The notes under the pieces were generated by a model, which did no database searches, had not been told where the DNA came from, and saw only the letters and a program-made list of their open reading frames with translations. Both the position numbers and the translations under genes were made by a program. DNA of 64,000 nucleotides from Phytophthora colocasiae (taxonomy: Eukaryota > Oomycota > Peronosporomycetes > Peronosporales > Peronosporaceae): positions 1,860,001 to 1,924,000 of the forward strand of contig JAGKQI010000052.1 of NCBI GenBank assembly GCA_018806915.1, in the 5' to 3' direction. This document shows positions 30,684-62,025 of this stretch, piece after piece (positions within the stretch are counted from its first letter, which is position 1; every line of letters begins with the position of its first letter).

Positions 30684-30999
30684 TGTGACGGGGGTCACAC
30701 AGCACTTCACACAGAGGAAGGCTTGGAGTATACAAACTCCTAGTGAACGGCAGTTCACTCGGTCCCCAAAGACTTGGGGAGACTAACTAAAGATTAGGTA
30801 GATTTAAGACTGAATATATTATAGATACTTGTTAGCTTGGCCTGCAATACAAACTAAAAGATATCTATAGTGTAACCTATATAGAAGGTGATAGGTGGCT
30901 GCGGAGCCACCTGCCACGTGTCACCATTATGTGTGACACACCAAATGTATCCACTTCGGAAGAGTGACTAAAGTCACTCTTCAATGTAACCCCGTTACA
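30684..30999 (-). repeat. 3' LTR of element F
   Basis: 316 bp and rich in short hairpins, e.g. TGTGAC/GTCACA, AGTGAAC/GTTCACT, GGTGGCT/AGCCACC, AGAGTGAC/GTCACTCT. Confidence 0.75.
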
Positions 31000-31472
31000 T
31001 CCTCCCCCACTTAGATTCGACTCTCGTCCAATCAGAGAAGAGAGAAAATCCCTTTCACATTTCTCTCTTCAATGCCGAAATCGATCGACCTGCCGCCAGC
31101 TCTAGTCGCTGCGGCTTCTGCTCTCACAGAGCACAGGGCGCACTGCCAACGCGTACCAGGCTTCCTTGGAAGCCCAGCAACATGTCTGCAAAGGGTGCAA
31201 ACCCAGACGCGCAAGCGTCTTCACGGAAGAAGGAAGGCTGCAAAGCCAACTTCCAAGCCAGCCAAGCCTCGCGGCAAGGCTTCGGCACTTCATGAGGCCA
31301 CCGATGTGGCCTCCAGGGCTTTTAGCTCGCCCAGCAGCACTGCTGCGACGGCTAGCCCTAGCCAAAGGCGCAGTAGGTCTCCGTCCCTACCGCCTGATAC
31401 TCGACCGAATCCTCGGTTCGAGTATAGGGACCATAGTCCCGGTTCCTGGAGTCCATCCGAACAGGAAGCGAC
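30684..31472 (-). mobile_element. Element F: 3' end of a C/E-like gypsy element, cut by D2
   Basis: The LTR at 30684-30999 starts TGTGACGGGGGTCACA and ends CCCCGTTACA, the same end as the C and E LTRs. It is followed by TCCTCCCCCACTTAG, the polypurine tract read on the minus strand. So the element lies on the minus strand with its body to the right. D2 interrupts it at 31473; the rest should lie beyond 64000. Only about 470 bp of its 3' internal region is seen. Confidence 0.75.
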
Positions 31473-31868
31473 TGTGGTGAAGCGCGAATAAGAAATCCGA
31501 GAAAAGGCAACGTCAGGCCCAGAGAGAGTCGGATCAAGCGACAGGGGCCTCTGGCGAAGCAAGATGTCAGTTGATGACCCCAGATTGCGCGAACGATGGC
31601 TGACGAATGGATCCAGATCGATGTTCGTCTCGATCTCGCCAGCGATGATGGATGGCGTCTTGGTCGAGTGAGACTAAGTGATTGGGGAACCCCGCCGTAC
31701 GGTCCCGCGTGGCGGCTCAGGGTCGAAGGAGAAAAAAAAGGCGCCTTGCCTGAGATCGCATGAGAAGGAGATCAAGGCAGCAGAGGATCGGGAACGGTGC
31801 GATCTATGGCTGGCCGGTGACAACATAACTGCGAGATGCTGCCGAGGGGACATGATGGCAGCGTTGGT
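31473..31868 (+). repeat. D2 5' LTR, first part
   Basis: Ends at the TTGGT duplication made by C. It matches the D LTR only in patches (TGTGGTGAAGCG, GAGTCGGA..AGCGACAGGGG), so it is a diverged subfamily. Confidence 0.7.
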
Positions 31869-32328
31869 TGTAATGGGTCTACCTAGACCTATTAGGTGGC
31901 GTACACGTGCGCTTACGTGTATGAGGAAGCGTGCAATTAGAATAGACTTAATTTAAGTATACTTATTTAAATAAGTATAATTAAATCAAATATAACTAAA
32001 TTAAACTGCAAAATACCGTAAAATGAGAACTGTTATTGAATTTGGCATAAGCCAATTGTGGACCTCCTAAAACTGTTTGTTATCTATTTCTAAAGGGTCT
32101 GACAACGTGTGGTTGGCAGAAACTCTGCTCAGTGATTGGTAGAAATCCGTTACTTTCTACCAATAATATGCACAAATGCACACGAACCACCCAATAATGT
32201 GGTTCGCCCATGTATCCTTTGGTGTGTACAGCACACCAAGGTCTGAGGCCCATTTCCAACCTCTAACAGTTATCCTAACTGTTAGAGTTACAAGTGGTAC
32301 AACCACTTGTACGTGTAACCCCGTTACA
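31869..32328 (-). repeat. 3' LTR of element C
   Basis: Starts TGTAATGGGTCTACC, ends CCCCGTTACA. Many short hairpins, e.g. GGTAGAAA/TTTCTACC, ACAAGTGGT/ACCACTTGT, TAACAGTT/AACTGTTA. Confidence 0.93.
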
Positions 32329-32429
32329 CCATCCCCCCGTTAAGATTCGACGTATCGGTCTCGATACGTCAATCAACAGAACTTGACAAGACCGTCAAGT
32401 TCCCGAGAGAAGTCCGAGTTCATTTCGCA

Positions 32430-33432
32430 ATGGACTCGCCAACGCCCACGTCTCCGTCCGCTTCTGCGGACGCGCAAGCCTCTCCTGCTGCAGAAGCAGC
32501 AGGAACAACAACCTCAGCAGTGCCTACTAGCACTGCTGCTCCAGCGGTTCGACAGAGAAGTTATTCTGTCACCGTCTACCATGCTCTCCACAAGGAGAAG
32601 CAAGCGAAGAAGACTTCTTCTTCGCTAGCAGGGATCAAACACCCTGCTGGCGTATCGCGAGCGCGTTGCTGTAGCTCGCGATCGCTACTACACTTACACT
32701 ACACGTGGTAAGTGTGAACGCCTCCATGATCAGTCCATGGAAGCGGGGATCCCATGTGCCGTTCCCTTTGGCACACCCTGTCCGTGTTGCCCACCCTTGG
32801 CAACACGCCTTACCGAAAGTGATCTCCTGGGGTACACGGTCGTCCGTGTACCCGATCACATCAAGGAGCTTCGTGGTCGTATTGTGCCACGCGAAGCTCC
32901 GAGTGCTGTGGCTGACCGCAGCACTCCTCGTGCAGGGTTTAACCCTGCAAGTTATGGTGGGCTTCGTACGCCCTCACCATTTCCGGAACGTCCTCCATCA
33001 GGACGTTCCGCGGCTCCCATGTATCTCGATGGGGAGGAAATCCTCTCCAACGAATACGAAAACGAACCCCTTGAGAGTTCGTTCTCTTATGAGCCACAAT
33101 CCGCTCAACAACCCAGCGGATCGCTCCACGCGCGTCGCGCAACGGCGGCAGAGGGGGTGGGAACACTCCCTCCGCATGGTCAACGCTATGACCATGACGA
33201 TCGTGCCCTGCACGATCGAGTTGCTGCGCTGGAGCAGACACAGAGCGCTGAGATAGCTGCTCTGAAGCAGGAGGTTCGTGTCCTCCGTGCTGAGGTCTGC
33301 GAGGCAGCTCAGACTGCCTCGAACCTCTCGTCCGGTCTTGGGACGAGAGTGAACCGATTGATCGACCGTATCGACGGTCTCAAGAAGGCCTTCCAGGCCT
33401 CTCGCACTCCTCAGTCGGACTACCAACCCTAG
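32430..33432 (+). other. Plus-strand (antisense) open frame at the 3' end of element C
   Basis: ATG at 32430 follows an initiator-like TTCATTTCGCAA. A Ser/Thr/Ala/Pro-rich frame runs to about 32640, then shifts by one into a frame that stays open to 33432. The second part reads RERVAVARDRYYTYTTRGKCE and ends with a coiled-coil-like stretch (IAALKQEVRVLRAEVCEA). It is antisense to the chromodomain and the end of integrase, but the first 500 bp lie outside pol. It may be an antisense gene or a by-product of composition; no family is recognised. Confidence 0.35.
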
Positions 33433-34666
33433 GTAGTCCGTGCTGCACGTACGGCTTCAACCGCCCGACGTAGAAGGTCGGGTGTAGCCTCATGCTGGAC
33501 GGTATGTTCAGCCGGTACGCGTTGCCGTGCCGTTCAAGTACCTTGAACGGCCCAATGAATCTTGGAGCAAGCTTGCTTGCTCCAAAGTCAGACACTGCAT
33601 GTTTAGGTAGGTTTTGTGTAGCTAACAAAACTAATGAACCCTTTTCGAATTCATTTGTGTTGCCTCTACCAACAGTATCAGCGTTCAGCTTCTGTCGATC
33701 GACAGAAGCTGCGATAGCATCCTGGACAAACCGTATGACGGCTTGTCTTCGCTGGACAAAGTCTAGCGCACCCGAGCTGAATCCATTCAGCTTGTCGCCC
33801 TTGTCAGCAGCAGGCCCTGCCTGCTCGCTATCATCTCTCATGTCTGTGCCCGGCACAGACATCGCGCGCTCGTTCCTGCTCGAACGAGACGTCGCACGCG
33901 TCACCGCAGCTGATAGTGTGCTGCTATCAGTTGCATTCTGCGGTTGTTCGGACGCAACCGTAGATCCTCCCCCACTTAAGGAGGAAGCTACCCCGCCGAG
34001 CATGCTCGGCAATCGTGGATGCCTCATGGCGTTCACGTAGAACGGTGTATGCCCTGTCGAGGCATGCACCGAGTTGTTGATGGCAAACTCTGCCATCGGC
34101 AAGCACTCGCTCCAATGCGGGAACGAGTGAGCGTAGCTCTTCAACGTGTCACCCAATACACGGTTGACACGTTCGGTCTGTCCGTCCGTCTGCGGATGAT
34201 CCGCAGTCGACATTGATAACAGTGAACCAAGAAGTGTAAACACTTCTTGCCAGAACCGCGCTGTGAAGCGTGGATCACGGTCCGACACAATGTCGAGCGG
34301 CATGCCATGGTGTTTGAACACCATGTCAACAAACAGTCGCGCAGTCTGCGCGGCTGTAACAGTAGCCGGGACGGCAGCAAGATGAACCATCTTGCTGAAT
34401 CGGTCCACAAAGACCACGATGCCCGTCCTCCGCTTGCTGTCAGGCGGAAGACCGAAGACAAAGTCCATGGACATGGACTGCCAACACTCCGACGGAGTCG
34501 GTAGTGATTGAAGAGGAGCCTGCGAGAACTGCGCAGGCTTCACGCGTTGACAAACCTCGCAAGCACGTACGTACTTGCGCACCCACTTGTACTGGTGGTG
34601 CCAGTAGAAGTCACGCGTGAGAAGAGTGTATGTCTTCTCGACCCGGATGCCCTGCCGTGGGGGCAT
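32939..34666 (-). pseudogene. Element C integrase and chromodomain (frame broken)
   Basis: Integrase 33380-34666 keeps D-D-E in SMDFVFGLP, VSDRDPRF and DGQTERVNRV, then a GPF-type module (APRFIGPFKVLERHGNAYRL). The chromodomain (VRFRIRWRGFPPHRDTWEP) follows in another frame at 32939-33241. Upstream, the zinc domain is split by a shift near 34650 (GHPGRED then KTYTLLTRDFYWHHQ). A Ser/Thr/Asp-rich insert lies between integrase core and GPF module. Confidence 0.85.
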
Positions 34667-34704
34667 CGTGATACTCGAACATGATCCTCAACCGGAGGTC
34701 ATGA

Positions 34705-36940
34705 TCATTCGGAACGACAATGCGATCCGCATTGTCGTCTACTGCACTGTACAACAGTAGGCCTTCGTGTACACGATAGCGGTGTACACGAGCTCGAAGA
34801 TGAGGGGTTAGCTTCCGACGTGCCACGTCGGAAGGTGCTGCGAGGAACTCCAGCAGCCCCTTCGCGTCTGCATCCCTTGCATACGCAGTTCTTCACGTCG
34901 TCAATCAACGTTGACGACGGCACACTTGTCCTCACGACGCCAACAGCGTTGGCGTCGACCGTCTCCGCATAGTCAGGTCGACGCGATAACGCGTTGGCCA
35001 CTACATTGAGTCTTCCGGGTTTGTACTCCACCCGGAAGTTGTACTCCGCGAAGAAGCGACAACCAACTCGCCATACGTTGCGAGATGTGCGGCGACTTAA
35101 TCGCCGTACGCAATGATGCGTGGTCTGTATAGACCACGAACGGTCTACTCCCAAGTAGATACACTCGGAACTTTGCGAGTGCATACTTCATGGCAAGGAG
35201 CTCCTTGTCATGTACGGGATAGTTACGCTCAGCTGGCTTCAGCTGACGCGATTGATAGTAGACTACACGATCACGCCCTTCGTGATCGTGTTGCATCAAT
35301 GCACATCCGATTGCAAAGTCGGATGCATCGCACACTACGTGGAATGGACGATCTTGGTCCGCCACGGCCAAGATCGGCGCTTCAGTCAAGCCCTGCTTGA
35401 CTGCACCGAATGCATCCTCGCACTCGGTCGTCCAAATCCACTCAGCTTCTTTCTTAAGAAGCTGTGACAACGGGCGAATCTTGCCCGCATAGTTGTCCAC
35501 GTACTTGCACAAGTACGTGGCAAGCCCAAGGAACTACCTCAGTTCCTTTACATTGGATGGCGTGGGCCATTCATTGATCACTCTGACCTTCTCTGGGTCA
35601 GGGCGCACGCCGTCTTTCCCCACGAGACACCCCAGCACGGGTATCTCGCTCGCCCCGAAGATACACTTCTTCAGGTTCGCATAGAGCTTATGTTTCCTCA
35701 TAAGCTCTAGCAGCTTCCGGAGATGCACAAGGTGCATCTCAATGTCCGTCTTCCCGTTCACAGCCCGGCTGTGGACGAACACGTCGTCGAAGTAGCTCGG
35801 TGCGAAGTCGCGCACCGAGCGCAATAGATGTGTCACGCATCTATTGAACGTCGCAGGGGCGTTCTTAAGCCCCTGTGGCATGACGAGCCACTCCCAAAGC
35901 ATACCGCTTGGAGTGCTTACCGCAGTAAGAGGGATGTCCCTCTCACGCATGAGGATCTGATAGAATCCATCACGCAGATCTAGAGCACTGAAGATAGTGC
36001 TCAAGGCCATCGAATCGATGATAACATCTTTTCGCGGTATCGGCGTCTGCGCCGGTATCGTCGCATCGTTCAACTTGTTGTACGCATGAACGATGCGCCA
36101 GCCGCCCTGTGGTTTCTTCACACAGAACGTTGGAGCACTGTGCGGGGACTTTGACTCCCGCACTTGACCTGCAAGACGACGACTTTCAAAGAAGTCGTCG
36201 ATCGCTTGCACTTGTTCACGCGGCAGTGGCCACTGCCGTGTAACACAGTACTTCGTGCCCGGCACGAGATCAATCTCGTGCTGTACGCCCTTATCCTTCG
36301 GAAGCTCCGAAGGAATCTCGTCCGGGAGTACATCCTTGTACTCCCTCAGAATCGTGTAATAGGGACTCGACTTCAACGAGTCCCAACTCTGCTCCTCGAA
36401 GCGTTGCTTCTTGGTCTTCGCACTGAGGGGGTCAACGCCCTCAGTGATGCCATCAACGACGAGCTGCTTCAGCTCCTCGGCTTCGCGATACACTCTCTCG
36501 ATATCCGAGAGAATGCAAATTTGTTCGATGCGTCCATCGTACAAGTCCCGCGCGAAGCGCTTCCAACTCATCGTTGGAAGTGCGGTCAACGCCGACGCAC
36601 ACGTCGGCGGATTCTCCAACCGCATCCTCTGGTACTGTAACCCAGTACCAGTACGTGTCAAGACGCTCAACGTCTCGACACTCGGTGTCTGCCCTGCAGA
36701 TACACCCTTCTCAGTCACGGACTGAGACTCACACAGCTCACTGAGCTGGTGCCGCGCGCTCTGATACTGTACCGCAGTATCAGTTCGTGTCAAGACGTCC
36801 AACGCCTTGACACTCGGTGTCTGCACCGCAGACACACCCTCCACAGTCATGGACTGGGACTCGCAAAGCTCCCTGAGCTTGCGCCGCGAAGGTCTGCCAT
36901 GGAGCTCAGCTCCAGGCGCTCCACGTCCAAGGCATCCCAC
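34705..36940 (-). pseudogene. Element C reverse transcriptase and RNase H (stop and shifts)
   Basis: RT (35534-36940) has the YCVTRQWPLP entry, LDLRDGFYQI and the active site SYFDDVFVHS. An in-frame TAG at about 35534 replaces the residue after KELR, before FLGLATYL. RNase H follows in the same frame (VCDASDFAIG, HDKELLAMKYAL, YTDHASLR). It loses frame after QRMASWLS at about 35060, with the C-terminal part (FFAEYNFRVEYKPGRLN) in another frame. Closest relative in the window is element E pol. Confidence 0.88.
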
Positions 36941-38205
36941 CTTGGACTTTTATCGCCATCGTCAGCGGATTCCTTCCGCTGACTCGCACATTCAAGCACT
37001 GCTTGTGTGCCGCTCATCGCGTGCAGCACCGCTGCACGTGAGCACGCAGGTTTTTCTGGTGCTGGGCGTTTGCAACCGCCAGCACCTCCTGCCGCACAGT
37101 CGGTTCCCTGAACCGCTGCGCCTCCATCCGCTCCTACGGATGGAGCAACTTCGCCCGCTACTACGGATGAAGCAACCGCATCGTCGACTCCCGGAGTCGA
37201 CGTGCTCTCGCTAGCTTCCTGCGCTAGCGAGTGTTCGCTTGTACACGTATCGTCAGCTCCCAGAGCTGACGCACGATCGCTAGTTCCCGGAACTAGCAGC
37301 GAATGTTCGCCTGTACACGCATCATCAGCTCCCGGAGCTGATGTACGATCGCTAGTTCCCAGAACTAGCAGCGACGCGCCAGTGGTGTCAGCTCCCAGAG
37401 CTGACGCACGCCTTTCGGTTCCCCGAATTTTATTTATTTCGTCAACTCCCGGAGTTGACGCGACGTCGTCGGCGCGACCCTTGGGGGCTTGAAGTACCTC
37501 CAAGGATACCGGTAATACCGGTATTTTACCTTCTCTCAGGTGAATTGCATTCACCTGACCATCACTCATGTGACAAACATCATTCAGATGTTTACGCGTC
37601 AGGTGATTCACATTCACCTGACCATCACTCATGTGACCGCGACTCTTCGGCTCAGATTTCTGAGTCGACACACATTTTCTCCCAACGACTCTCGGAGTCG
37701 TTGATGGTCGCCGGCAGCGATCGGAGGCAGCGGCGGCCGCTGCTGCCTCAACTGGGGATTCACATGCACCGGCCGGTGCATGTGCAGCACTGACAGGGCC
37801 ATCGCTCTCTGTCGCGCATGTGTTGTTGAAGCGTACGAGCGTACGCTTCTCCCAGTTGATCTCCGGGTCATGCCGTGCAAGCCACGGCATGCCTAATACC
37901 AAGTCGAACTTATCGTCTAGATCCAAGACGATAAGATCTTCTACAAACGTCCTTCGTTTGTAAGAGAAGCGCACACGGACCACGCGCTTCTCACTCCTTA
38001 CGGTGGCACCTGTTGCCAACCGCACCTCCAACACGCCGCGAGGCGTGTCGGTCTCTTCGAAGTCAAGCCTTCGAAGACTTCCCTGTCGAACAAAGTTGTT
38101 CGACGCGCCCGAGTCCACTAGGGCACGAAGAGAGTTCACTCTCTTCGACATCACGTTCAGGATGACAAGGCCTGGCTTGTCATCTTGCATCTCGCAGCGA
38201 GAAAC
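36847..38205 (-). pseudogene. Element C protease and repeat-rich linker, cut by D
   Basis: Read leftward from 38205: CEMQDDKPGLVILNVMSKR, then the protease active site LVDSGASNNFV and VLGMPWLARHDPEINW. A long low-complexity linker follows, with Ser/Gly/Ala/Asp repeats (units of about 72 bp near 37235-37400, e.g. LGADTTGAS, PGADDACTGEHS). It ends at 36847 in a frame different from RT. Element D interrupts the start at 38206; the preceding bases are right of D at 52194 and beyond. Confidence 0.8.
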
Positions 38206-39577
38206 TGTGGTGAAGCGGACGAAAATTTTTCCCGGAGAGGCGATGTCAGCCACGAACCCGAATAGAGTCGGAACGAGCGACAGGGGGGACCGGTGATCGC
38301 CAGATCTGGGTCGAATCACACGAAGGTACGATGGGTCCCGCCGGGAACAGGCAATGGAGACACCGGCGAAGAAGCAGGTGGAGCGGTGTTCGTGGGTGAT
38401 CCGAATCCTGCCGTGGTGTTCGTGGGTGATCCGAATCCTGCCGGAGGAAGAATGGGGAAATCAAGGATGTTCTCGCGCGATCAACGATGACGGGTCCCCA
38501 AGCGAGCATGATCAGCTTACCCTGGCGCCCCGAAGCCTCTAACAGCACGATCCAACTTCCCCGGGCGGCGACGAAGCGAGATCACGCAAGATCGCGCAAT
38601 GATCCTCTCCCGTATAAGTACGAGATCAGCTCCGGATCAAGGTCAACCCCAGGCGCGGCGCAGACTCTTCTTGTGGCCTGATCCGGATTCTATGAAGGAT
38701 CACCAAGCGGGATCAGGCAGTGATCAAGTCCCGATTAAGTACGAGATCAAGCTCCGGTTAAGTGCGAGATCAAGCTTCGGTTAAGTACGAGATCAAGCTT
38801 CGGTTAAGTACGAGATCAAGCTTCGGTTAAGTACGGAATCGGCTCAAGATCAGGGTTAGGGGAACCAAGCTAGGGATCAGCTATGTAGCCAGTGTCATGT
38901 GATCGTAGGATAGTAAATCAGGATGGGATTAGTAGGCATAGGAATAACCATAAACAGACTCGAATTTGCCCTGAACCACTCAAGTGTCTTCGCTACGCCT
39001 GGAACCGGGAACTACATTGGCCCTACAAGCGTCAGGAAGGTAAGGATACGTGACCTAGTATAGCGGTTAAGACTGGATAATATATTGGCCAGCTTTGCCC
39101 TATCTAGTGAACTATCCTTTAAGTGCATACATCGGATCGGAAGGAATTGGTTGTTTAGGCTAAGGATCCCGTCGAATCTCGCCCCCTCAAGACCCCCGCT
39201 ATCGGAAGCGGAAAACAACGAAAGGAAGGGACTGAATCCCGAACATTGGACTATTGGAAGACCTGGATCAAGAACCAGGCACCCGGATCAAGGCTCGAGA
39301 ACTCGCCTACGACCGGGATCAAGTACCCCGAGGTGGAGTGAAGAACTTCCACGCCGCCTCAAACCCCTGCGTCACCCAAGACCTTCTTCTCGTCCCAAGA
39401 CATCTTCAGAAGTTACCTGGAAGAGCGTAACCCGCCTACCGACGGGTACACAAGGTGAACACTACACGCAACAAGATCACGGATCATCGGGGGACCCCCT
39501 CCGTTAGTCGGTGTCTGGGCGCAAGTGGCGATCGCGATCGGCCTCAACCAGATTTTGGCCAGATCCGCTCCACCACA
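38206..39577 (+). repeat. 5' LTR of element D
   Basis: 1372 bp. Contains tandem 23-bp units (GGTTAAGTACGAGATCAAGC..., 38733-38845), two fewer than in the 3' LTR. A 30-bp duplication (GTGTTCGTGGGTGATCCGAA...) lies near 38390-38440. Confidence 0.93.
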
Positions 39578-39578
39578 A

Positions 39579-39603
39579 TGGTGCGCGTGCCCGGATTCGA
39601 ACC
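39579..39603 (+). other. tRNA primer binding site of element D
   Basis: It starts TGGTGCGCGTGCCC one base after the LTR and continues into GGATTCGAACC. The whole 25 bases are complementary to a tRNA 3' end: CCA, acceptor arm and TPsiC arm. Good evidence for tRNA priming. Confidence 0.85.
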
Positions 39604-39609
39604 GAGGAT

Positions 39610-41904
39610 ATCACCGTGAGTCCCAAGAAGATGTCAAGATTAAAGAAGAACAAGGGGAAGAAGTGCCTACGAAGGTTGGATCGACGGAGGCACTGCTTAA
39701 AACGGAAAGATCCACAGATCAGCAGAGTTCTGGGAGGATCTCTACTGACAGGCACGAGGCAGACCTGGATCGCAATCCAGATCTCGAAGAAAAACCTCGA
39801 ATTCCTCCCAAGGCCCCGTCGAGGGCCATTGCGGATCTCGATGAGAATCGAGATCCGCACACGAGCGATAAGGAATCAGCAAAGCTGAAACCTAATCTGC
39901 TCACCAAGACCACTGGTGCCTCAAGATCGACCAAGAAAAAGAAGATCAAGAGCACCCGGACGAAATTGAAGGCTCCAGACTCAGAGCCAGAGGATGTGAT
40001 CAACCCAGGATCAACGATCACCAAGGACGCGATCGAACAGGCCTACTACAGGAAGAGGCTAAGCGAGACCTTGCTTAATGATCCTGTTCTTACGATCATA
40101 CAAGTCCGCCAGATCGGTAACCTCACCGGCCCAGTGTCGAAGCCCCGGATTAGCTCTGACCGCCTGAACGCGGTGAAGATCCTACTTGATCTGCTCCAAG
40201 AAGCTGGTTTGGTGGCTGGAGAGTTCGACCCAAACTCTCTATTTGACTTGGAACTGCAAGCGATTCAATCTGCGACCCATGATCTATTCGACTCCCTCAA
40301 GATCTTGGTCGGCGAGCGCCTACTGACGCCCGACCCAGGCTATCAGACTGGGTCGTCATGCTACGCGTCAGCGACCTCGGAACCAGACTCAGATAGCCCG
40401 AGAGGGTTGCAACGCATGTCGTTAGGGCCCTCCGGCGCCAAGTTCCTGAAATCGCGTGTGAAGAAACAGGATACGCGATCGGTGGCCGCAAAGCTGGAGG
40501 TCAAGATGCCCGATCAGCAAGAAAATCGCCGGATCCGGACGGACCAGACCGCGCCGACGACTAATTCCACTGGATCGAGCAACAAGTTGGACGATTACTT
40601 TCAAATGGCGATGGATCGTTTCTTGAAAGAACGGAATCTCGCGACACCCCGATCGCCGATCAAAGGGGAGTTGGATGTTGAAATGGAGTCCGTCACGGCC
40701 TCGGATCCGGATGCATGGGAATACGATCCGGACGATATGGGCATACCAAGTTCTGGTGGACAGATGTCGAGCCGAGCAGTGATCGCATCCGCGGCAATCG
40801 GTCAAGGAGGATCGTCGATGATCCAGCGGGTCCGGATCTCAGCGATCTCGGATCTGAAAGATTTTGCGGGTAAAGATCTGGACGAAGATCGCGCTCGGGC
40901 CTGGATCAGTAAAGTCAAGTCAGCATTTCAGCGCGATCAGGCTACGGAAGAAGAGAAATGCCTCACATTTGCAGATCTGATGGTGGGACCGGCAAAGAAC
41001 TGGTACAGGCAGCTCAGTCGAACGACGAAAACCAAGTGGGCAGATCTGTTGGACAGTTTCCAGACCCAGTATTGTGGGTTGGGTATGTCGGTCGCGTGGC
41101 AATACTATCACGCTCGCAAACGATCGGAGGATACTCCCATTGACTATCTCAACCCTATCAAAGTGGCGGCTTTACGTGCTACACAGAAGATCAAGGATGG
41201 GAGCCCTAAGGCCCGCCGGGAACATGTAGATCACTATATCGAGACATTGGAAGATCCGGAGTTAGCTGGATCGGCTGACCCTACTCCGGCTGAATGACGT
41301 CGATGAACTTGAGGAAGTACTTCGTGCCCGGGAACGGGCGAAAAGCAGACAGCGTAAATCTGCGTTCGGATCGAAGTACAGACAAAAGGCACCGGCCAGT
41401 GCCCCGGCGGCACCCACCCGGGCGGTGGTACGGGCGATCCAAACCCAGGATCCGAGCTCGGAATCGGAGGAAATATCCGGATCGGACGGGTCCGATTCTG
41501 AAGGCGATCTCCGGAGAATATATCTTGCTGCGTCGGAAGACAAGCAGATCGGCACTGGGGGCGTCCCCCACCAACAGGATCAGTCGCGATCGCAGGTGAA
41601 CACGCAAGATCGAGGCCGGATCGCGGATCGCAGGGGTACGTCGGACCACGATCGAGGTCGCTGTTCACACTGTGGATCGCGGAAGCATACGGATCTGGAC
41701 TGCTGGAGACGTCTAACCTGCGAAAAGTGCGGGAAGAGAGGTCACCCAACAGATCGCTGTCTGTATACCTGCCGTGGTTGTGGGGAGATCCATGAAGCTG
41801 GAGAATGCCCCATGGAAGAATTCTACAACCAGATCCGCAAGTGGTACGACCCGACCCGACATGCCGGATTGTTCCCCGAGAAGGTGGAAAAGATGTTAAA
41901 CTAG
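39610..41904 (+). pseudogene. Element D gag with zinc knuckles (frameshifted)
   Basis: The frame from the LTR to 41297 gives an acidic N-terminal half and then a retrotransposon gag core (ARAWISKVKSAFQRDQ, VGPAKNWYRQLSR, SVAWQYYHARKRSE). A one-base insertion at about 41269 (CTGGATC where D2 has CTGATC) shifts it to an early stop. The true continuation is at 41298-41904 and holds zinc knuckles CSHCGSRKHTDLDC, CEKCGKRGHPTDRC and CRGCGEIHEAGEC. In D the ATG overlapping the primer site is out of frame with gag; in D2 it is in frame. Confidence 0.85.
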
Positions 41905-41921
41905 GACGCTCGCCGGTTTGG

Positions 41922-43238
41922 AAACCGGTACGAGCCGAGCGTTCTGAGTACTGCATCTATGCATATGTGAACAAGGAATCGAGAGATCAAGATAGGGAGA
42001 ATTCGGATCTGCGCGGTAATACATGTAAGTTGCATTCGTATACTGCTAAGATCGCGAGTCTTCCCCGGATCGATGAGTTCTCGCGATCTGGTGCGGAAGT
42101 AGCTTTGGATCTCAAGGAAGGAGAATCCAGGGGGTATTGGAAATACCACGCACCAGGAAAATGGTTCCGCCAAGCCAAGATCTCAGGCAAGATCAATCAG
42201 GAAAGAGCGATCTTGCTCCTGGACACTGGCGCCGAGGTATCCATCTTGAATACCACCTTTGCTCGTAAGGTTGGGTGCCACTTTGACACTAGTCAGAGAC
42301 AGGAGTGTGTTGGGATCGGCGATAATGTGTACACCACCGAGGGAAGAACGAGGATCAAGATCACACTTGCGGGATATTTGGTCTACTTTTTCGATATTTG
42401 GATCGGAGATCTATCCGGACAAGATGCGATCCTGGGTATGGATTTCATGATCCCGGCTGGGGTCCGGATGGATCTGGCAGAGGGATCGATGTGCTTACCT
42501 AATGAAGTGGGGATACCACTTAGTGGTCACAAAAGATTATACGGGGAGAAGGTGAGATCAGTGAAATTGGAGGAAGATCTACATATCCCAGTTGGGGGAT
42601 CTGAAGAGACCGCATCGAGAGTGAAATTATCGGCGACGGAGAAATTATGGGTGACCAGAGGCGACCGATGGGTACCCACCGTGGTAAATGGACCCGGCCG
42701 AACTCGGTACTTAGTGATCACGAATTTGAGCGAGAAGATTTTACGACTGGATCACAGATTACATGTCGTGATGGTACTTGATCAAGAAAAAGTTCCTCGC
42801 TACCCCGGGTTTGTGTCGGTCGGGTCCCGGCGTTACATGGAGTGGCAGAATCTAGCTCTAGAAGCGACAGTGGACGCAAGACCGGAACCTCAGGAAACCG
42901 TAGAGATCCCCTTACCGTCGGTCGAACGGCCGACCTACGTTACGCCGCGATCTATACTCCGTCGAGGTGGGGCAATCAAGACCGATCCTGATCCTGCACC
43001 AATATCGACATTGGAACCGCGATCACCGACCGATACGGCCGAAGTCAAGGTCGCATTCATCGATCCCCAACCGGATCCCATGGATACCCCACCGATCACG
43101 ATCAGTTCCGACAAGGCCCCGAGTGGCGAAGCTGGGGCGGTGAGACTGAGACGAATGGTGAGACTGAGACGAATGAGAGCTTGCCAGATCAGGCCCCAGG
43201 TCGGACAGATCGGACATGTGAAGAGGAAATCGAGGTAA
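41922..43238 (+). pseudogene. Element D protease region
   Basis: Open frame with the aspartic protease site ILLLDTGAEVSIL and the flap-side DAILGMDFMIPAG. A long linker follows to about 43140, where the frame shifts at a duplicated GTGAGACTGAGACGAATG. RT then continues in another frame. The frame differs from gag, so either a programmed shift or a lesion lies around 41900. Confidence 0.8.
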
Positions 43239-46200
43239 AAACAGAAAAACCAGATTTTCAAATCGAGATCCAACATGTATCCGACGCCGACGCCGTCCCC
43301 ATGGTTAAAGACACCCCGATCTTGACAGCCAAGGACGATAGGCTGCGTGATCAATCAACGGATGAACCGGATCCGACATCTCCTGAAGGGATCGAGAACG
43401 CTGATCAGACCCACTTACACGAAAGTGGCGATTTTTCGGCCGAAGATCTAGCCGATAATCTCGCAGTAGTACCAGAAATCCAGATCTCCACCACTGAAGA
43501 AGTCAAGATCGAAGATCTGCAAGTAGGAAATCCGGGATCGGCTACCCCGGAGGAGATCGAGAAACTTCGACAGATTATTTGGAAGAAGCGACATCTCCTG
43601 ATCGGAAAGGGAAACGCACTTCCTCCAGCGGCCAAGGGTGTTATATGCGATATCGACGTGGGTGATGCAAAACCGATCGCACAACGAGTCCGAAAGGTGG
43701 CGCCACAGTTCCGCGAGAAAGTATCGGATCTCATCAAAGGCCTCCTAGCTGCCAAGATTATCCGGCCATCGACCTCGCCATGGGCATCGCCGATCGTGGT
43801 GATCATCAAGAAGAACGGTGTAGACATCCGACTATGTATCGATTATCGGCTGGTGAACGGTCTCACGAGGCTGATGATCTACCCAATGCCTCTGATCAAT
43901 GACCTGTTAGAAGATCTTGACAAGGTTCTGTGGTACTGTTCATTAGACATGGCGAGTAGATTCTGGGTCGTATCAATGACCGATCGAGCTCGCGCGATCT
44001 CAGCTTTCATCACCCCGTTCGGCCTCTTCGAGTGGAATCGCATGCCGTTCGGGCTGAAGAACGCCCCTCAAATCTATCAACGTCTTGTGGACAACGCCCT
44101 ATATGGATTTTTGAAGATCTCCCAGTCAGGGAATACGAAAGACTCTACAGATGTGTTTGAATCAGGGGTCCCGGAAGATCCTGGTCGCCCGTCGGTTCTA
44201 GGACGGAGATCTTACATCGACGATATCTTGATCACGGCTGGAACATGGGATCAAATGTGCGATCGGGTGGAAGACCTATTGGAGGCCTGTGATAAGTGGA
44301 ATCTCTCGATCAGTGTGGCGAAGAGCTTCTGGGGCATGGATAAGGTGGAATATCTCGGACACAAAGTGTCGATCGACGGATTGGAGGCAAACCCGAAAGA
44401 CCTGAAGTCTCTGACGGATCTGCCATTCCCTGGGTCGCTCCGATCCATGCAATCGTTCCTGGGAAGTTTGAATTACTATAGTCGGTTCATCGAGGATTAT
44501 GCGATCTATGCATCGGTCCTATATGAACTACGTGAAGTGGAGTTCGCAGAACTGAAGAAGCGACCAGATCTTCGGAAGATCATGGATAGTACGGACCCGA
44601 TCAATCGAGATCCCGTTGCGCTTAAGTCGAATCAGGATGGATCACCCGACACCTTGACTCAAAAGGGGAATAGTACGCCGGATCTTAACTTGGGGGCGAC
44701 GCCTCCCCCCTGTTCAAGCAAGGTCGGAGCCAATCTGGCCCAAAGAGCTGGCGACGAAAGGTGGGGTAGGGCACACAGGGCGTTTACAGCCTTGAAAACC
44801 AAGATCGCGTCGACCCCGATCCTTCGTCACTTCGACATGACAAAGTTACCCGTGGTGATCGTGTATGCCAGTGACTGGGCGATTTCCGCCGCACTAATGC
44901 AGGAACACGACCAGGTCTACCACCCGGTCGCGTTTGCCAGCCGAACCTTGAAGACGAACGAGTTAAACTATAATGTTGCCGAAAAGGAGGTGTTGGCTCT
45001 ACTTCGGATCCTGGATCTACACTACACCCTGTTGGTGGGACGTCGGATCAAGGTCCTAACCAGACACTCCACGCTTGCCTGGCTGTTCAAGTCTGCCGGC
45101 CTCCAAGGGCGTCTGGGACAATGGTCTGCTCTCCTGTCCCCATGGACACTCGAGATCACGAAGTGTACGAAGGGAGAGGATGAGATACTGGGGGCGATCG
45201 CAGCTAATATAACGCCTAGATCGGAGATCGACGAAGCCCTGATCGCGATTGCGCCACAGAAGGAACCAAGACGTAAGATCCAGATGCCGATTCCCACCGT
45301 AGATCCAGGCGAGGAGCTATGGGTGGTAAGTTTCGACGGTTCGGCACGCGTGAAACGAGGAGGAGGCGCTTTCAGCGCGATCGTGTGGAGTTTGCCGGAG
45401 TGGAAAGTGATCAAAGCTAGATCAGACTATGCGGAGAGTCTTACTGTCAATGAAGCGGAATACCGTTGGCTCTTGCTAGGTCTTTGCATGATCGCACAGT
45501 TAGAACGCCGCCGTTTGCTCATTTGTGGCGATTCGAACCTAGTGATCCGACAAGTCCGGGGCGAGATCGACTGCAAGGCGCCAGGATTGACGTTACTGAA
45601 ACAGAAGGTGCTAGATCACTTGTGGAATTGGGGAGGTCATGAGCTAGTCCATGTGAAGAGAGACTGGAATGGGAGCGCAGACAGCTTGGCGAGCGCCGCG
45701 CTGCAGCGAGGAAGCGGGATCGAGGTCCACGATGAAGCAGATCGGTGCGATCTGGTCACCCTGAATCGGCTTGATGAGGTGTTGATCCCTCGAGTTGAAG
45801 ATCGAACGGTGCAAGTGTCGGCCGTAGCCACGGGTGCAGCCCGAGCACGACCCGATGCCGCCGTCCTGCGAGAGGAACTGATCCGGGAGATGCGAGTGGA
45901 TCGGATCAGGCGAGCCCAGGACGAGGAGGTCTGGATCGCCGGACTAAAGAAGTACCTGGCTGGGCAGATCGTGGATCTTACTCGAGCCGAGGCTGGATCC
46001 TACGCCAAGATCGCTTCCGAGTACGAGGTAGATGAACAGGATCTGTTGTTTTATTGCCCACCAGGGCCGAGATCAAGAGGTGATCGCGACCGTCTGATGA
46101 GACTCGTGGTTCCAGAAACGCTACAGCAGGATGTCCTCCACCACTACCATACGACTCTGGAAGGGGACATCAAGGGATCGGACGCACTTATCAGCGGATC

Positions 46201-46252
46201 CGAGATCATTTCCACTGGAGGGGATTATATCGGAGTGTGCAGCGATACGTAG
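43140..46252 (+). CDS. Element D reverse transcriptase with two RNase H domains
   Basis: Frame open for over 1000 codons. RT: RLCIDYRLVNGLT, CSLDMASRFWVV, MPFGLKNAPQIYQRL, active site SYIDDILI. First RNase H (gypsy type, about 44835-45170): VYASDWAIS, EKEVLALLRI, but the expected TDH reads TRH, so a catalytic Asp is missing. Second RNase H (about 45320-45710): SFDGSARVKRGGG, NEAEYRWLLLGL, ICGDSNLVIRQV and RDWNGSADSLAS, with all acidic residues of an archaeal/plant-type RNase H. Dual RNase H is known from plant Tat/Ogre elements and from some oomycete gypsy lineages. The frame is lost in the integrase zinc domain near 46165. Confidence 0.88.
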
Positions 46253-47511
46253 GCGAGTGTGTAGACTGTGAGACCGGAAAGGGGAGACCCACGATCCGGG
46301 GCGAGTCACCTGGGAATCTGCAAGCTACATACCCATTCCAGATCATAGCGATGGATCACATACCCTCTCTGCCCAGATCCAACAAAGGCAATACTGAACT
46401 GCTGATCTGGGTGGATCTGTTCACTGGATATGTGATCGCAAAGGCTAATTCCTCCCGATCGGCCCAGACCGTCGCGGAATCTTATGAAGAATGCGTGTTC
46501 CGCAGATTTGGCGCTAGCGAGATGATCAGGCACGATCGAGAGCCGGGCTTCATGTCCGACTTCTTCAGATCGTTTAATAGGATCCTGGGGCAACGACAAC
46601 GGGCGACGATGGCCTACCGACCACAGGCCAATGGGACTGCGGAACGGATGGTGCAAACGGCCACTAGGGCAATCAAGATGTATGTTCAAGATCTCGATCA
46701 AAAGGACTGGGATGAATATGCGGAGAGATTGACTTTCGCCATTAACACGGCTCACGATCGGGTCCGGGGAGATGCCCCTCACTATTTGGTACACGGATGG
46801 GACCCGAGATCGACGCTGGAAGCGACGATCCCGATCGGGTCGACCAGGCGCCATGACCGCGATCCAAGACGATGGAGATATCGCGTTCAGAGATACTACC
46901 AGCAGTCGAGAGAACAGGTCAACGCTAGGCTGCGAGAGGCGATTGCGGACCGAGCTGATCGACACAATGAGGACGTCGACCCGCATTAGATCGAAGCTGG
47001 ATCACGTGTTTGGCTATACCTAGATCGTGTGAAGGAAGGGTATGCACGTAAACTCGCTCACCTCTGGCACGGCCCGTTCCGTGTTGCAGAGAAGCTCAAT
47101 GAATTCACGATCAAGCTGGAGATCGCGGGATCTGATTACCATATCTTCCCGGTGGTCCATGTTTCTAAGCTAAAGCTGGTACGGAATTTCCCGGATCGAC
47201 CGCGGATCGAGTTGACGGTGGATGAAGCAGATCGGCTCGATTTCGATGAGATCCTCCTTCCGGAAGACAGTTGGGTCCCGGATCTGGATATCGATGAGTA
47301 CGAAGTTGAACGGATCTCGGACATGCGAAGTGGGAAACGAACTCGCTACGGCCGGATCTATCGTGAATTTCTGGTGCACTGGGTCGGTTATGATGAGCCA
47401 ACGTGGGTCGACGAAGCTGATCTTAACTGTGGGGTCATATTGAGCGCGTTCCTACGTGACCACGCTAATCGGAACCGGTTCGGCGTGATGCAGTCGCATG
47501 AAGAGGTGTAA
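46165..47511 (+). pseudogene. Element D integrase and chromodomain (shift and stop)
   Basis: After the shift near 46165 the frame holds the rest of the zinc domain (YVGECVDCETGK). The integrase core has D-D-E in IAMDHIPSL, RHDREPGFMSDF and ANGTAERMVQ. It stops at TAG 46987-46989 (CAT TAG ATC), where D-family sense would probably be Lys. The same frame continues with a GPF-type module (LWHGPFRVAEKLNEFTIKL), and a chromodomain (REFLVHWVGYDEPTWVDEADL) to 47511. Confidence 0.88.
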
Positions 47512-47863
47512 GGAGAGTCAGGCGAGGTGACAGGGTTGCCTCGCCGTGATCGAGGAAGCTGATGTGGAGGAGAATCCAGATCAGAGCGAGAGTTTTATAT
47601 TTGTGTATATGCATGTGCGTAGGGAATTTGACGGTGGAAGATGGTGGTCCGGGATGTCGAGATGGAGATGAAAGGGGATCACATTCCTAAAATGATAGAG
47701 TACGATGGAATGACGGTGAGAATGGAGATTACGGATTACGAGTGGAGATTATGAGAATTACGAATGGAGATGGAAGAATGTAGAACGGCCCTGGAAGGGG
47801 TTCCGAATCCGAACTCGGGGAGAAGCCCTGAGCCTTGCTGCAAGTGATCGAAGTTCGCACGAC
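47512..47863. other. Spacer between pol and antisense gene in D
   Basis: 352 bp with no supported gene. It contains purine-rich, GAGATGG-type low complexity. It must hold the 3' ends of both the sense gag-pol unit and the antisense gene. Confidence 0.5.
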
Positions 47864-50668
47864 TTACGGAGAAGCGGCCCCAGCGGGAGGAGGATTGAAC
47901 TTGCCGATAAGTCGGGGAATCCTGGTGGCGGGATGGTTGACCGGGTCTTGCCGATACTGGTTACGCCACGGATCCGCCTCGTCACACTCCTCCAGAGCCT
48001 CGATCAGGTTCGCCGGCTCTGGGACGTTCGCGTTGGGATCCGACAGGTTGGCACGCCGAGAGACCACGCCGGGATACCAACGAACCACATCCACCGACGG
48101 AATGGGGAGGTGAAGGAAGAACGGATCCAGCAGGATGTCGAGATCGAACCACTGATCGCGCATTATGGCGGGGAAGGAGGCGAGGAATTGGCGCCAAGCA
48201 GACCCAGCCCGACTCCGCCGGGCCTTGCGAGCAACGTAATACCGCTGCAGTTCAAGATCCGCATCCTGCATGGCAGAGGTGATCTCAAAGTTGTGGGTGG
48301 CCTCCCAAAATGCTTGACGGTGCCGTTCCTCCAGAACGCGATAGGTGGCGGCCACGGCCGCGAGGGGTGTTCCCTCCCTCTCATGCAGATCGAGGTCGAA
48401 CGTAAGGGGACCCGGGTTCGCGAAGTCGTTCCACGGCTCCAGAGCCAGCAGATCAAGCACGTTCACGCCCGTGATCAACTCGTGGAGGTATTCGGTGCGG
48501 GGGGTCGGTGCAGGCCCAGCCTGTATCTGGGAAGGGAACAGCCAACCCGAAGGGATCAACAACCGTTTGCCCAGAGAACTGGCGATCAGACCCACGATCG
48601 AATACTGCCCGATCACCTGCGGATCCCACGGCACGATGTCAGCAGCCGCGAAGGTACGCTGCCGATCGTACCCTGGAATGAAAGAGGCGACCGGGAACAG
48701 GGGTGGTCGGAGCCCGGGGGGCGAGGAACCGCCGGAAGGAGGTGGCGGCGGCGACGGGGAACCCGGAGGTGATCCTGGAGACGGCGGGCCTGATCCATCT
48801 GGAGATGGGCTTGAGCCGTCCGGAGACCCCGATCCACGGGTGCCAGAAGGTCCGGATCTCGGAACCTGACCAGACTCGCGCCGGTGCGTCGAGATAGATC
48901 GTTGGCGGCTCATGTGTAAAATATCATCATCCTCGGAGTCCTTCGCCTCGTTGGAGCGTTCCGATTCGGCTTCAGAACTAGTTCCATTGCTGGGTTCTGG
49001 ACTTCCGTCCTCTTCGGACGGCGACGAGAATGGGTGCTGGGGATCGTAGTCGGAGTCTTCCTCGTCCTCATCCGGCGAACCACCCTCGGCGGGAAGTGAT
49101 CCGGACTGATCCGTAGGCGCTGGGGTCGGATCAGGGGCTGGAGTGTCGGTTTCCTCCCCTCCGGCTTGCCCAGAAGCTTGATCCGCCAACAGATCCAGCG
49201 GACTCGCCGTTGATCCTGCCGGGGTCGGGACTACCGTGGGTGTGACAGGCTGGGTTGACCCGGGAGCTTCGGTAGCTGCAGGTTTTAGATCACGGGGAGC
49301 TGAGGTGCTCCGAGCCGGACGCTTGCGTGAGGAAGGAGGAACGGCCGGGGAAGCGGAGGCGCTTCGAGATCTTTTGGTGGCACGAGCCGCCCGTCGATCC
49401 GCGATCCACGAGGACAACCGAGCAGAGGAATCCTCGGCGTGGTGCAGCTGTTGCTCGGCTTCGGCATAATCAGCGTCCAGCTCTTGGTGAGCCTGTCGAA
49501 GCTCCGCGTTCTGTCGCTGGAGTTGGTCGAGCTCTTGTGTCGCCGCATCCCGGGCGGAACGAGCCACGTCAAGGTCTGCGAGGGCAGACAAACGATCTTG
49601 GGTGGCATCGTCCAGGTCGACCTGGATTCGATCACGGTCTGCCGTTACTCGATTGAGATCTTGCATTGCCTGATCCCGGTCGAGGCGGGCCTGATCCAGG
49701 TCTGCGAGGGCCTGATCTCGCTCGGCAATGGCGGCACGATGCTGGACGGAGAGCTGGTCCCGGTCGTGCTGGATTATTTCCAGATTTCCCAAGGCGTCTG
49801 CCAGATCTTGCTCCAGGCTGGATACGGCGGCGGCATCGGCGGTTGCACCCAGAGGCGGAGCGCGAGAATCCGGGGCGGATACGTCCTCCAAGGCGAGGTG
49901 TGCCCGAGCCAGTTCAACCTGGTGATCCTCTGCCTCGCGTTCCAGATACGCGACTTCGGCTCGAGCGGCGAGCAACTCCGCTTGGGTCCGCGTTAACTCC
50001 AACCTTAACCGAGCTTCCTCTGCCGTAGGGCGAGTCTGATCAGCGGGCATGGCCATAGCCGCTTGTGGACCCTGGGAGGAATCGTTCCTCTGCCAGCGAT
50101 CAAGGCTACGCTGAGTGAGGGTCAGGTCATGACGCACGGCGGCGAGCTCCCGTTCGCGATCCTGAAGCTCATCCCGGAGTTCAATCTCCGTCTCCCCGGC
50201 TATGCGAAGTTCGGCCAGCCGGAAGTCGAGATCCTCGAGCGCAGAGTCTAGCCGCGTCTGGATCCGGGCCAGTCGCTGCTCAGACTCCCGTCGTTCGGCG
50301 TCGTGCTGGGCCCGCTGATCCTGCAAGGCGGCGATCGCGTCCCCACCGATAGCATCTCCGGTTCCCGATCGCAGATGAACGATTTCGGCGTTCAGCCGCA
50401 AAATCTCCTCCGCTTGGTCGTCCCGGAAGCGCTCCATATCCTCCATGTCGGATCGCAACCGGCGAACGGTGTCGTCCAGGTGGTCCCGATCGCGGCTCAA
50501 GGTCTCGCGCATCCGTTGGCTATGGGCCAGCCTCGCTTGCAAGGTGACCAGCTCAGGGTTTACCCCGGGGGTTGAGAAGCGGGAGGCCGTGGATCGGGCG
50601 GATCGGAGCGAGTGCTCGCTCGAGGGCGTCCTCGGCGTCAAGGGGGGCGAGGAAGGCGGATCGGACAT
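47864..50668 (-). CDS. Element D antisense gene: large coiled-coil protein
   Basis: 934 codons on the strand opposite to gag-pol. Start ATG at 50668, only 104 bp from the 3' LTR; a longer frame from 50752 exists. Residues about 30-430 are a long coiled coil (ERDQALADLDQARLDRDQ-type heptads). Then comes a basic patch that could be a nuclear signal (TKRSRSASASPAVPPSSRKR), and an acidic, Pro/Ser/Gly-rich linker. A globular C-terminal domain of about 270 residues follows (ASFIPGYDRQRTFAAADIVP, then Trp- and Leu-rich helices ending RIPRLIGKFNPPP). No stops or shifts, unlike the sense genes. No known family is recognised. Plant Tat/Ogre elements and deltaretroviruses also have antisense genes near the 3' LTR; any shared function is inference. 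Confidence 0.8.
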   Translation of the reverse strand: MSDPPSSPPLTPRTPSSEHSLRSARSTASRFSTPGVNPELVTLQARLAHSQRMRETLSRDRDHLDDTVRRLRSDMEDMERFRDDQAEEILRLNAEIVHLRSGTGDAIGGDAIAALQDQRAQHDAERRESEQRLARIQTRLDSALEDLDFRLAELRIAGETEIELRDELQDRERELAAVRHDLTLTQRSLDRWQRNDSSQGPQAAMAMPADQTRPTAEEARLRLELTRTQAELLAARAEVAYLEREAEDHQVELARAHLALEDVSAPDSRAPPLGATADAAAVSSLEQDLADALGNLEIIQHDRDQLSVQHRAAIAERDQALADLDQARLDRDQAMQDLNRVTADRDRIQVDLDDATQDRLSALADLDVARSARDAATQELDQLQRQNAELRQAHQELDADYAEAEQQLHHAEDSSARLSSWIADRRAARATKRSRSASASPAVPPSSRKRPARSTSAPRDLKPAATEAPGSTQPVTPTVVPTPAGSTASPLDLLADQASGQAGGEETDTPAPDPTPAPTDQSGSLPAEGGSPDEDEEDSDYDPQHPFSSPSEEDGSPEPSNGTSSEAESERSNEAKDSEDDDILHMSRQRSISTHRRESGQVPRSGPSGTRGSGSPDGSSPSPDGSGPPSPGSPPGSPSPPPPPSGGSSPPGLRPPLFPVASFIPGYDRQRTFAAADIVPWDPQVIGQYSIVGLIASSLGKRLLIPSGWLFPSQIQAGPAPTPRTEYLHELITGVNVLDLLALEPWNDFANPGPLTFDLDLHEREGTPLAAVAATYRVLEERHRQAFWEATHNFEITSAMQDADLELQRYYVARKARRSRAGSAWRQFLASFPAIMRDQWFDLDILLDPFFLHLPIPSVDVVRWYPGVVSRRANLSDPNANVPEPANLIEALEECDEADPWRNQYRQDPVNHPATRIPRLIGKFNPPPAGAASP

Positions 50669-50771
50669 TTCGAGAGAGTGGTGGCGCTTGAACGACTTGT
50701 GTTCCAGGTGGTGAATGTGGAAATAAACCCGAAGTGAGCTGCGGCAGCTCAACTTACGTGCTGGGGGCGGA

Positions 50772-52189: not shown

Positions 52190-52276
52190 AAACCTTCTCG
52201 CTGGGGGCAGCAGCCTTCAACGTCGCGTGTCCGAGTTCGACACGCGAGACTGCATTACCAGTAGGACGCCCCGCGC

Positions 52277-53262: not shown

Positions 53263-53290
53263 ACGAACGAACTGCAGTCGGTCGTGGGAC

Positions 53291-53309
53291 GGACTACAAA
53301 GTGCTACCA
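53291..53309 (-). other. Primer binding site of element C
   Basis: On the minus strand TGGTAGCACTTTGTAGTCC begins two bases after the 5' LTR. E has nearly the same site. Confidence 0.7.
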
Positions 53310-53311
53310 GG

Positions 53312-53771
53312 TGTATTGGGTCTACCTAGACCTATTAGGTGGCGTACACGTGCGCTTACGTGTATGAGGAAGCGTGCAATTAGAATAGACTTAATTTAAG
53401 TATACTTATTTAAATAAGTATAATTAAATCAAATATAACTAAATTAAACTGCAAAATACCGTAAAATGAGAACTGTTATTGAATTTGGCATAAGCCAATT
53501 ATGGACCTCCTAAAACTGTTTGTTATCTATTTCTAAAGGGTCTGACAACGTGTGGTTGGCAGAAACTCTGCTCAGTGATTGGTAGAAATCCGTTACTTTC
53601 TACCAATAATATGCACAAATGCACACGAACCACCCAATAATGTGGTTCGCCCATGTATCCTTTGGTGTGTACAGCACACCAAGGTCTGAGGCCCATTTCC
53701 AACCTCTAACAGTTATCCTAACTGTTAGAGTTACAAGTGGTACAACCACTTGTACGTGTAACCCCGTTACA
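53312..53771 (-). repeat. 5' LTR of element C
   Basis: 460 bp. It differs from the left copy at two sites seen (TGTATT/TGTAAT near the end; AATTATGG/AATTGTGG). Confidence 0.93.
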
Positions 53772-53776
53772 TTGGT

Positions 53777-61968: not shown

Positions 61969-62025
61969 TCTCACAGAGAAACAGTCTTCAACTCAGGAGT
62001 TGGATTGACTACAAGTGCTACCAGA

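Follow-up and report, generated by a model that had tools for sequence, protein, structure and literature searches.

Can a retrotransposon carry perfect hairpins along its entire coding sequence, and what would keep them there? The question is raised by element C, a Ty3/gypsy long terminal repeat (LTR) retrotransposon of the oomycete Phytophthora colocasiae, which has its sense on the minus strand and is interrupted by a nested element, D. Element C lies in a stretch of 64,000 nt (assembly GCA_018806915.1, contig JAGKQI010000052.1, positions 1,860,001 to 1,924,000), referred to here as the window, with positions counted from its first letter. The original prediction, made by inspection of the letters, held that C is saturated with short perfect inverted repeats. 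The saturation is confirmed and characterizes three families in the same genome, C, E and F. In C, hairpin arms are conserved among the variants shared by genomic copies, pairing is of the Watson-Crick type only, and some loops occur in inverted form in different copies. We tentatively suggest that hairpins acting alike on both strands are kept by selection during the propagation of these elements.

Perfect stems of at least 8 bp with loops of up to 10 nt were counted per 1-kb bin across the 64 kb. The six bins covering the main piece of C (32001-38000) contain 11-21 stems each. The bin 38001-39000, into which C extends by about 200 nt, contains 4 stems, and the two bins at 52001-54000, where C continues to the right of D, contain 11 and 8. 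All remaining bins contain 0-2 stems. Eight stems singled out in the original prediction are all perfect and located where it had placed them. Codon-preserving shuffles (100 per frame; mean and maximum given) fall far below the observed counts for the protease (27 stems; mean 0.9, maximum 4), reverse transcriptase (RT; 18 stems; 0.5, 2), RNase H (7 stems; 0.2, 2) and integrase (12 stems; 0.4, 2) parts of pol. The gag of C, also expected to be stem-rich, has 9 stems (0.2, 2). The shuffled frames thus carry about 30-45 times fewer stems than C. Saturation spans the LTRs, gag, pol and the 3' region. Under a dinucleotide Markov null, 0.4 stems of at least 7 bp are expected per LTR, and 8 (left) and 7 (right) were found; the 3' region has 20 with 0.9 expected. 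In five other frames of the window, including E pol, 8-bp stems remain within the range of the codon shuffles, and stems are at chance level in D, in a host-type gene (BT1) and in another gypsy frame. An origin by chance, base composition, tandem repeats or codon bias would need to account for numbers in C of which both nulls fall more than tenfold short. The only supportive observation is that part of the linker appears by eye to repeat short palindromic units. The probability of such an origin is practically negligible, and the codon shuffles and the dinucleotide null rule out chance, composition and codon bias.

The excess of paired arms in C starts at 4-5 bp and, compared to chance, peaks at 7-11 bp, with a maximum arm of 13 bp and loops of 0-10 nt. 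Non-overlapping hairpins of at least 6 bp number 176 and cover 47% of the element. The saturation is a property of the family, as 37 out of 37 other copies examined carry 11.7-15.5 stems of at least 8 bp per kb. These copies were retained from 55 loci (L001-L055) for comparison with the window copy and are part of at least 90 scored C places. The 18 omitted loci correspond to the window itself or to places already included, with L043 and L052 representing one place and both being left out in error.

The stems sit largely at synonymous positions, as originally predicted. Among 842 codons aligned between C and the related element E (469 in RT and RNase H, 373 in integrase), C arms have amino acid identities of 0.63 and 0.60, compared to 0.65 outside of arms. 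Pairing of wobble with wobble positions, which we read as the phase least served by synonymous change, is avoided by the stems of RT, RNase H and gag (7 of 48 stems). The same phase is found in 8 of 20 stems in integrase and in 16 of 30 stems in the looser protease-linker part. A synonymous extension is often open at the end of a stem and yet the stem stops, which is the case for 31 of 95 stems in C and for 50 of 132 in E, where the control value is 0.42.

Element E (54859-62446, minus strand) is a related Ty3/gypsy element with a chromodomain recognized by Pfam and is 60% identical to C over 354 columns including RT. The motif GGATC borders E on both sides, as read by eye. The original prediction held that E encodes similar protein without the stems. 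This holds for long stems, with E pol lacking the 9-11 bp stems of C and having no stem of at least 9 bp. The claim fails for shorter arms, as E carries 33.5 hairpins of at least 5 bp per kb with 7.0 expected, mostly at positions other than those in C. E pol contains 48 stems of at least 6 bp compared to 16.6 in codon shuffles, with 135 exact 5-bp arms (55 expected) and 39 exact 6-bp arms (15 expected). Loops of 1-6 nt are preferred, and the excess extends along the whole element (z 8-12 in eight bins at 55001-63000). E has 150 scored places in the genome, with RT identities of 97-100% and long open frames in many of them, and is probably recently active.

Family F is represented in the window by an LTR at 30684-31000 (minus strand), which contains 7 stems of at least 6 bp with 0.64 expected. 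The LTR occurs at no fewer than 40 places in the genome, and all 40 scored places, taken from 362 first-look candidates, are 98-100% identical. Some of these LTRs are paired at a distance of about 8 kb. Family F is young. A 1-kb segment midway between two such LTRs (L060) encodes RT and RNase H with 64-65% identity to C and 71-81% identity to E, and its location suggests that it is the inside of F. The segment has 17.0 hairpins of at least 6 bp per kb with 2.3 expected. Its codon shuffle was based on one frame fitting the second half only, hence a frame-free null was used for densities.

What the three families share is hairpin density rather than hairpin position. Counting hairpins of at least 5 bp with loops of 1-8 nt, densities per kb are 28.6 in the internal part of C, 19.4 in the C gag piece (7.7 expected), 33.5 in E and 26.0 in F, with 6-8 expected overall. 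Control densities are 8.2 in D (7.1 expected) and 7.7 in the window at 1-30000 (6.8 expected). Typical arms are about 9 bp in C, about 5 bp in E and mostly about 6 bp in F. Given that density is alike (19-34 per kb) and arms differ, arm length is a family trait. Exact coincidence of hairpin axes was observed for 3 of 31 axes when C was compared to E (1.4 expected). F has 4 of 15 axes in common with C (0.5 expected) and 4 of 17 with E (0.7 expected). Positional homology of the hairpins was rejected, as only a minority of axes is common in the compared parts. Part of the sharing may arise from protein motifs that themselves yield a palindrome.

Comparisons among C copies were used to distinguish the propagating phase from the time after insertion. 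After masking of stretches that aligned at less than 75% identity, rates were based on columns represented by at least 15 copies (5521 of 6337). Variants common to at least three copies were taken as older than the insertions, and private variants presumably arose mostly after insertion. Shared variants occur at 0.022 per site in arms, 0.062 outside of hairpins and 0.124 in loops; the private variants are at 0.123, 0.144 and 0.217, respectively. The depletion in arms persists at synonymous third positions, where shared variants in arms, outside and in loops amount to 0.012, 0.145 and 0.130 in RT and RNase H, to 0.014, 0.084 and 0.077 in integrase and to 0.051, 0.117 and 0.216 in the protease-linker part. 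Private variants at synonymous third positions of RT and RNase H are at 0.124, 0.148 and 0.275. Changes found in at least two copies concentrate at stem ends (0.083 and 0.061) compared to the stem interior (0.016-0.023), and private changes are flatter along the stems (0.132, 0.116, 0.118, 0.139 and 0.086). Arm conservation in C is therefore confined to shared variants, i.e., to the propagating phase. Palindromes could also be made or kept by a process of the host after insertion, e.g., through extrusion of hairpins followed by repair. In agreement, 7 of the 11 stems with inverted loops described below have one form present in a single copy only, which could postdate insertion. However, private variants strike arms nearly as often as the rest of the element, and D, BT1 and the other gypsy frame of the window show no enrichment. 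We consider such a host process highly improbable and disfavour it.

Which type of pairing is conserved should indicate the molecule concerned. The original prediction proposed selection for a highly structured RNA, which could serve packaging, stability or escape from small-RNA silencing. The folding energy of the sense strand is indeed 28-41% below that of codon shuffles in four C regions and 11% below in E pol (z -10.9) and E gag (z -2.6), with four control frames only 0-2.5% below. Arm conservation in the propagating phase is consistent with the proposal as well. C hairpins of at least 5 bp are also more evenly spaced than random (coefficient of variation 0.78 vs 0.99) and leave only 385 stem-free windows of 25 nt where 549 are expected. 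Furthermore, Phytophthora transposable elements are linked to a class of 25/26-nt small RNAs according to one study (PMC3804510). Several observations do not fit a sense RNA though. In both C and E, the antisense strand folds with nearly the same energy as the sense strand, and the spacing of C hairpins of at least 6 bp is within the random range on both measures. Hairpins of E are clustered beyond random expectation; a strict 25-nt spacing rule was rejected on these grounds. Most importantly, G·U should count as a pair in RNA. Stems of C with one internal mismatch in family-majority columns include 10 G·T, 12 A·C and 6 other mismatches. Hairpins of C with eight pairs exceed expectation 6.6-fold with an internal G·T, 10.2-fold with an internal A·C and 52-fold if fully paired. 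For 5-pair hairpins of E, the corresponding factors are 1.1 and 0.9, and 4.4 for full Watson-Crick pairing. Since G·T has no advantage over A·C, the pairing is Watson-Crick and strand-symmetric. This symmetry disfavours a model in which only the folding of sense RNA is selected, and we regard such a model as improbable. The shared arm variants lean towards G·T (16 vs 8), which speaks for sense RNA and against a fully strand-symmetric explanation, hence a contribution of sense RNA may remain. The proposal of structured RNA thus agrees with the conserved arms, but the tolerated mismatches are not those that folding of the sense transcript alone predicts.

Further features of the hairpins relate to stability. 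Arm length declines with the GC content of the arm in both C and E (rho -0.20 to -0.27; about 0 in the shuffled null), as a stability window would give, and hairpin formation itself seems to matter. In E, the pair adjoining the loop has a 5' pyrimidine and a 3' purine in 93 of 138 hairpins, compared to half in the shuffled null. No clear preference for a loop motif was found.

The other mechanism put forward in the original prediction, template switching, would require no benefit of the hairpins. The reverse transcriptase would fold the nascent strand back and copy or repair imperfect hairpins into perfect ones, and selection on the protein would purge non-synonymous outcomes. Evidence for strand switching at hairpins comes from loops. 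Among 99 stems with loops of at least 2 nt, 11 have the loop and its exact reverse complement in different C copies, at lengths of 2-6 nt. Overlapping non-stem segments used as a control are inverted in 26 of 2583 cases for 2 or 3 nt and in 4 of 2583 cases for 5 or 6 nt. Paired changes are consistent with such a mechanism as well as with selection on the hairpins. Double changes relative to the window copy retain pairing in 73 cells and abolish it in none. The retained double changes comprise 63 Watson-Crick cells (9 distinct kinds) and 10 G·T cells, and cells are not independent. Watson-Crick-only, strand-symmetric stems are expected as well, and a few multi-base changes in single copies lengthen a stem, e.g., in L031 at C-sense position 4104. 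The 5' arms of E are purine-poor (0.437, p=0.001), which amounts to an arm asymmetry though located mostly at the pairs adjoining the loop; the value for C is 0.509 (p=0.53). Template-switch mutations creating and maintaining hairpins are known from RNA genes, according to a published analysis (PMC8794818).

Evidence that template switching created the stems is less favourable. Rare multi-base clusters numbered 118, of which 16 adjoining gaps were left out. Among the 102 tested, 3 gain a reverse-complement match, which falls between the controls for complement-only (0) and reverse-only (6) matches, and 12 lose one. Single changes beside stems have no bias towards pairing at the first three offsets (35 vs 33.2, 19 vs 19.3 and 14 vs 18.3), and stem growth by single-base correction was rejected for this reason. 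Judged by wobble identity, neither arm is clearly overwritten (p=0.10 in C and p=0.63 in E). The shared loop inversions also appear few given the number of arm mutations that would need to be erased by correction. Overall, the interpretation offered in the original prediction is partly supported, with strand switching at hairpins taking place, gains in rare clusters lying between the two controls, no bias at stem flanks and no clear arm direction. Mutation without benefit is a possible explanation of the hairpins, and we consider selection on strand-symmetric hairpins slightly likelier; both may act together.

We tentatively favor such selection in a clade of oomycete Ty3/gypsy elements comprising at least the families C, E and F. 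The elements would keep their whole length foldable into small, local Watson-Crick hairpins at a frequency of about one per 30-40 nt. The hairpins would be maintained during propagation and not after insertion, as judged from C, the family in which this could be tested. Hairpin density, together with an arm length specific to each family, would be kept far more across families than the position of individual hairpins. Given strand-symmetric pairing without preference for G·U, the molecule concerned would most simply be single-stranded cDNA, or sense and antisense transcripts together. Strand switching templated by hairpins may supply part of the variation, visible as loop inversions. That the conservation reflects selection is inferred, as are the selected molecule and the kind of benefit.

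A number of observations weigh against selection on strand-symmetric hairpins, in addition to the G·T lean of shared arm variants. Four copies of E (about 850-900 nt each) show no clear conservation of arms (43 of 1043 positions differ, compared to 104 of 2300 outside), hence arm conservation is established for C only. Arm length and loop length are negatively correlated (rho -0.24 and -0.21), and a simple stability rule predicts the reverse. Closing pairs in C lack the preference seen in E (51 of 97). Stems of higher stability do not have more shared changes (0.041, 0.039 and 0.057 from most to least stable). In stems defined by majority columns, one of nine kinds of double change (3 cells) breaks the pair. 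Conserved internal mismatches mostly lack a synonymous repair (5 fixable, 16 not fixable, 7 outside of frames), which correction predicts equally. The first outer mismatch of C stems is synonymously repairable somewhat less often than in controls (0.33 vs 0.39-0.48). Frozen arms would likewise result if reverse transcription strongly corrected one arm against the other and both arms were under protein constraint. All data stem from one genome. Finally, any benefit or function of the hairpins is hypothetical.

A further-reaching proposal, which we regard as possible but less likely than not, is that this lineage turned its entire genome, coding and non-coding, into Watson-Crick hairpins acting in single-stranded cDNA or in both transcript strands. 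Hairpins could then, for example, shield replication intermediates or prevent the annealing of sense and antisense transcripts that feeds 25/26-nt small RNAs. Density and arm length would be heritable, and the position of hairpins would not. Protection of cDNA is one conceivable function. Since Phytophthora 25/26-nt small RNAs are tied to transposable elements, the hairpins could conceivably also help to escape small-RNA targeting or the annealing of sense with antisense strands. If selection keeps the hairpins, the elements represent coding genomes under a dense, strand-symmetric structural constraint, which searches for RNA structure relying on G·U pairs and conserved positions would misread. 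If mutation makes the hairpins, a reverse transcriptase that rewrites its own genome has left a natural record in these elements. Three families with numerous copies in one genome make either explanation testable. Synonymous sites in hairpin-saturated elements should not be used as neutral clocks.

The architecture of C is that of a typical Ty3/gypsy element. The left LTR (31869-32328, minus strand; the 3' LTR in sense) and the right LTR (53312-53771, minus strand; the 5' LTR in sense) were delimited by alignment, are identical at 458 of 461 aligned columns and both have TG...CA ends. A 5-bp TTGGT flanks the element at 31864-31868 and 53772-53776 as a short target-site duplication. A purine-rich tract on the minus strand adjoins the left LTR, as read by eye. 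The stem-rich 3' internal region (32329-33432) holds a frame on the plus strand, opposite to pol and near the LTR (32629-33432, 267 aa from stop to stop), which has no Pfam match. On the minus strand follow the integrase part of pol (33432-34687; H2C2, rve and SH3_Tf2-1), RT and RNase H (34973-36949; RVT_1 and RT_RNaseH), where one in-frame stop separates two frames, and the aspartic protease with linker (36847-38205; RVP_2). To the right of D, the stem-rich gag and 5' internal region (52178-53311, minus strand) contains Retrotrans_gag and a zf-CCHC zinc knuckle at 52277-53038. The Pfam order on the minus strand is gag, protease, RT, RNase H and integrase, i.e., the Ty3/gypsy order with integrase after RNase H. 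C was not assigned to chromoviruses, as Pfam recognized a chromodomain in E and not in the integrase frame of C. The nested element D (38206-52177), which served as an internal control, is recognizable by direct repeats, e.g., 38206-38505 with 50772-51071 and 38893-39192 with 51505-51804. The terminal parts of D contain 23-bp tandem repeats (38699-38863 and 51265-51475) differing in copy number between sides. Elsewhere in the window, the bin 7001-8000 has an excess of short hairpins (z 5.4), and a long near-perfect palindrome at about 7880-7970, with arms of about 40 nt, resembles by eye a foldback or miniature transposon.

The genome of 92.5 Mb in 105 contigs provides a broader context for C. 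The candidate RT places listed are at least 93% identical to C over the main match. LTR pairs about 7.8 kb apart with 99-100% identity to the window LTR indicate recent activity. Two subfamilies may exist, as the alignments of many copies overlap by about 130 nt near C-sense position 1447/1450 (region about 1318-1579), as if a segment of the protease-RT linker were duplicated in tandem in the window type. Phytophthora species provide the nearest database proteins for the RT segment of C, e.g., a P. cinnamomi protein with 84% identity over 85% of the query, and another annotated P. cinnamomi protein has 92% identity over 63%. All of the best 120 of 1511 protein matches are below 97% identity, hence copies from the source species are probably absent from that database. 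A search for related DNA in collections of viral contigs and genome contigs (viral_contigs and genome_contigs) found no relative.

Compared to known systems, C shares with the Ty3/gypsy (Metaviridae-type) elements of Phytophthora the order of gag, protease, RT, RNase H and integrase, the LTRs and the 5-bp flanking duplication. It differs by its hairpin saturation, which is absent from the gypsy-type D and not named in the titles and abstract openings among the literature matches listed. In keeping with the original prediction, no report of a palindromised retrotransposon was found among the matches listed for the open-access literature, judged by title and abstract opening and with subscription papers and preprints lying outside of the search. 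Genome-scale ordered RNA structure of RNA viruses is a whole-length excess of folding energy over codon shuffles. C and E resemble such genomes in having energies below codon-preserving shuffles along their length, but the pairing in C is perfect, local, strand-symmetric and without a G·U preference. In chloroplast DNA, hairpin loops flip between the arms of perfect hairpins, which are scattered in non-coding sequence. Loops flip likewise in C, but hairpins there extend over the whole element including pol. The template-switch hairpins of RNA genes (PMC8794818) share loop inversions and paired changes with C. Those events concern RNA genes, whereas in C an entire coding mobile element carries about one hairpin per 30-40 nt.

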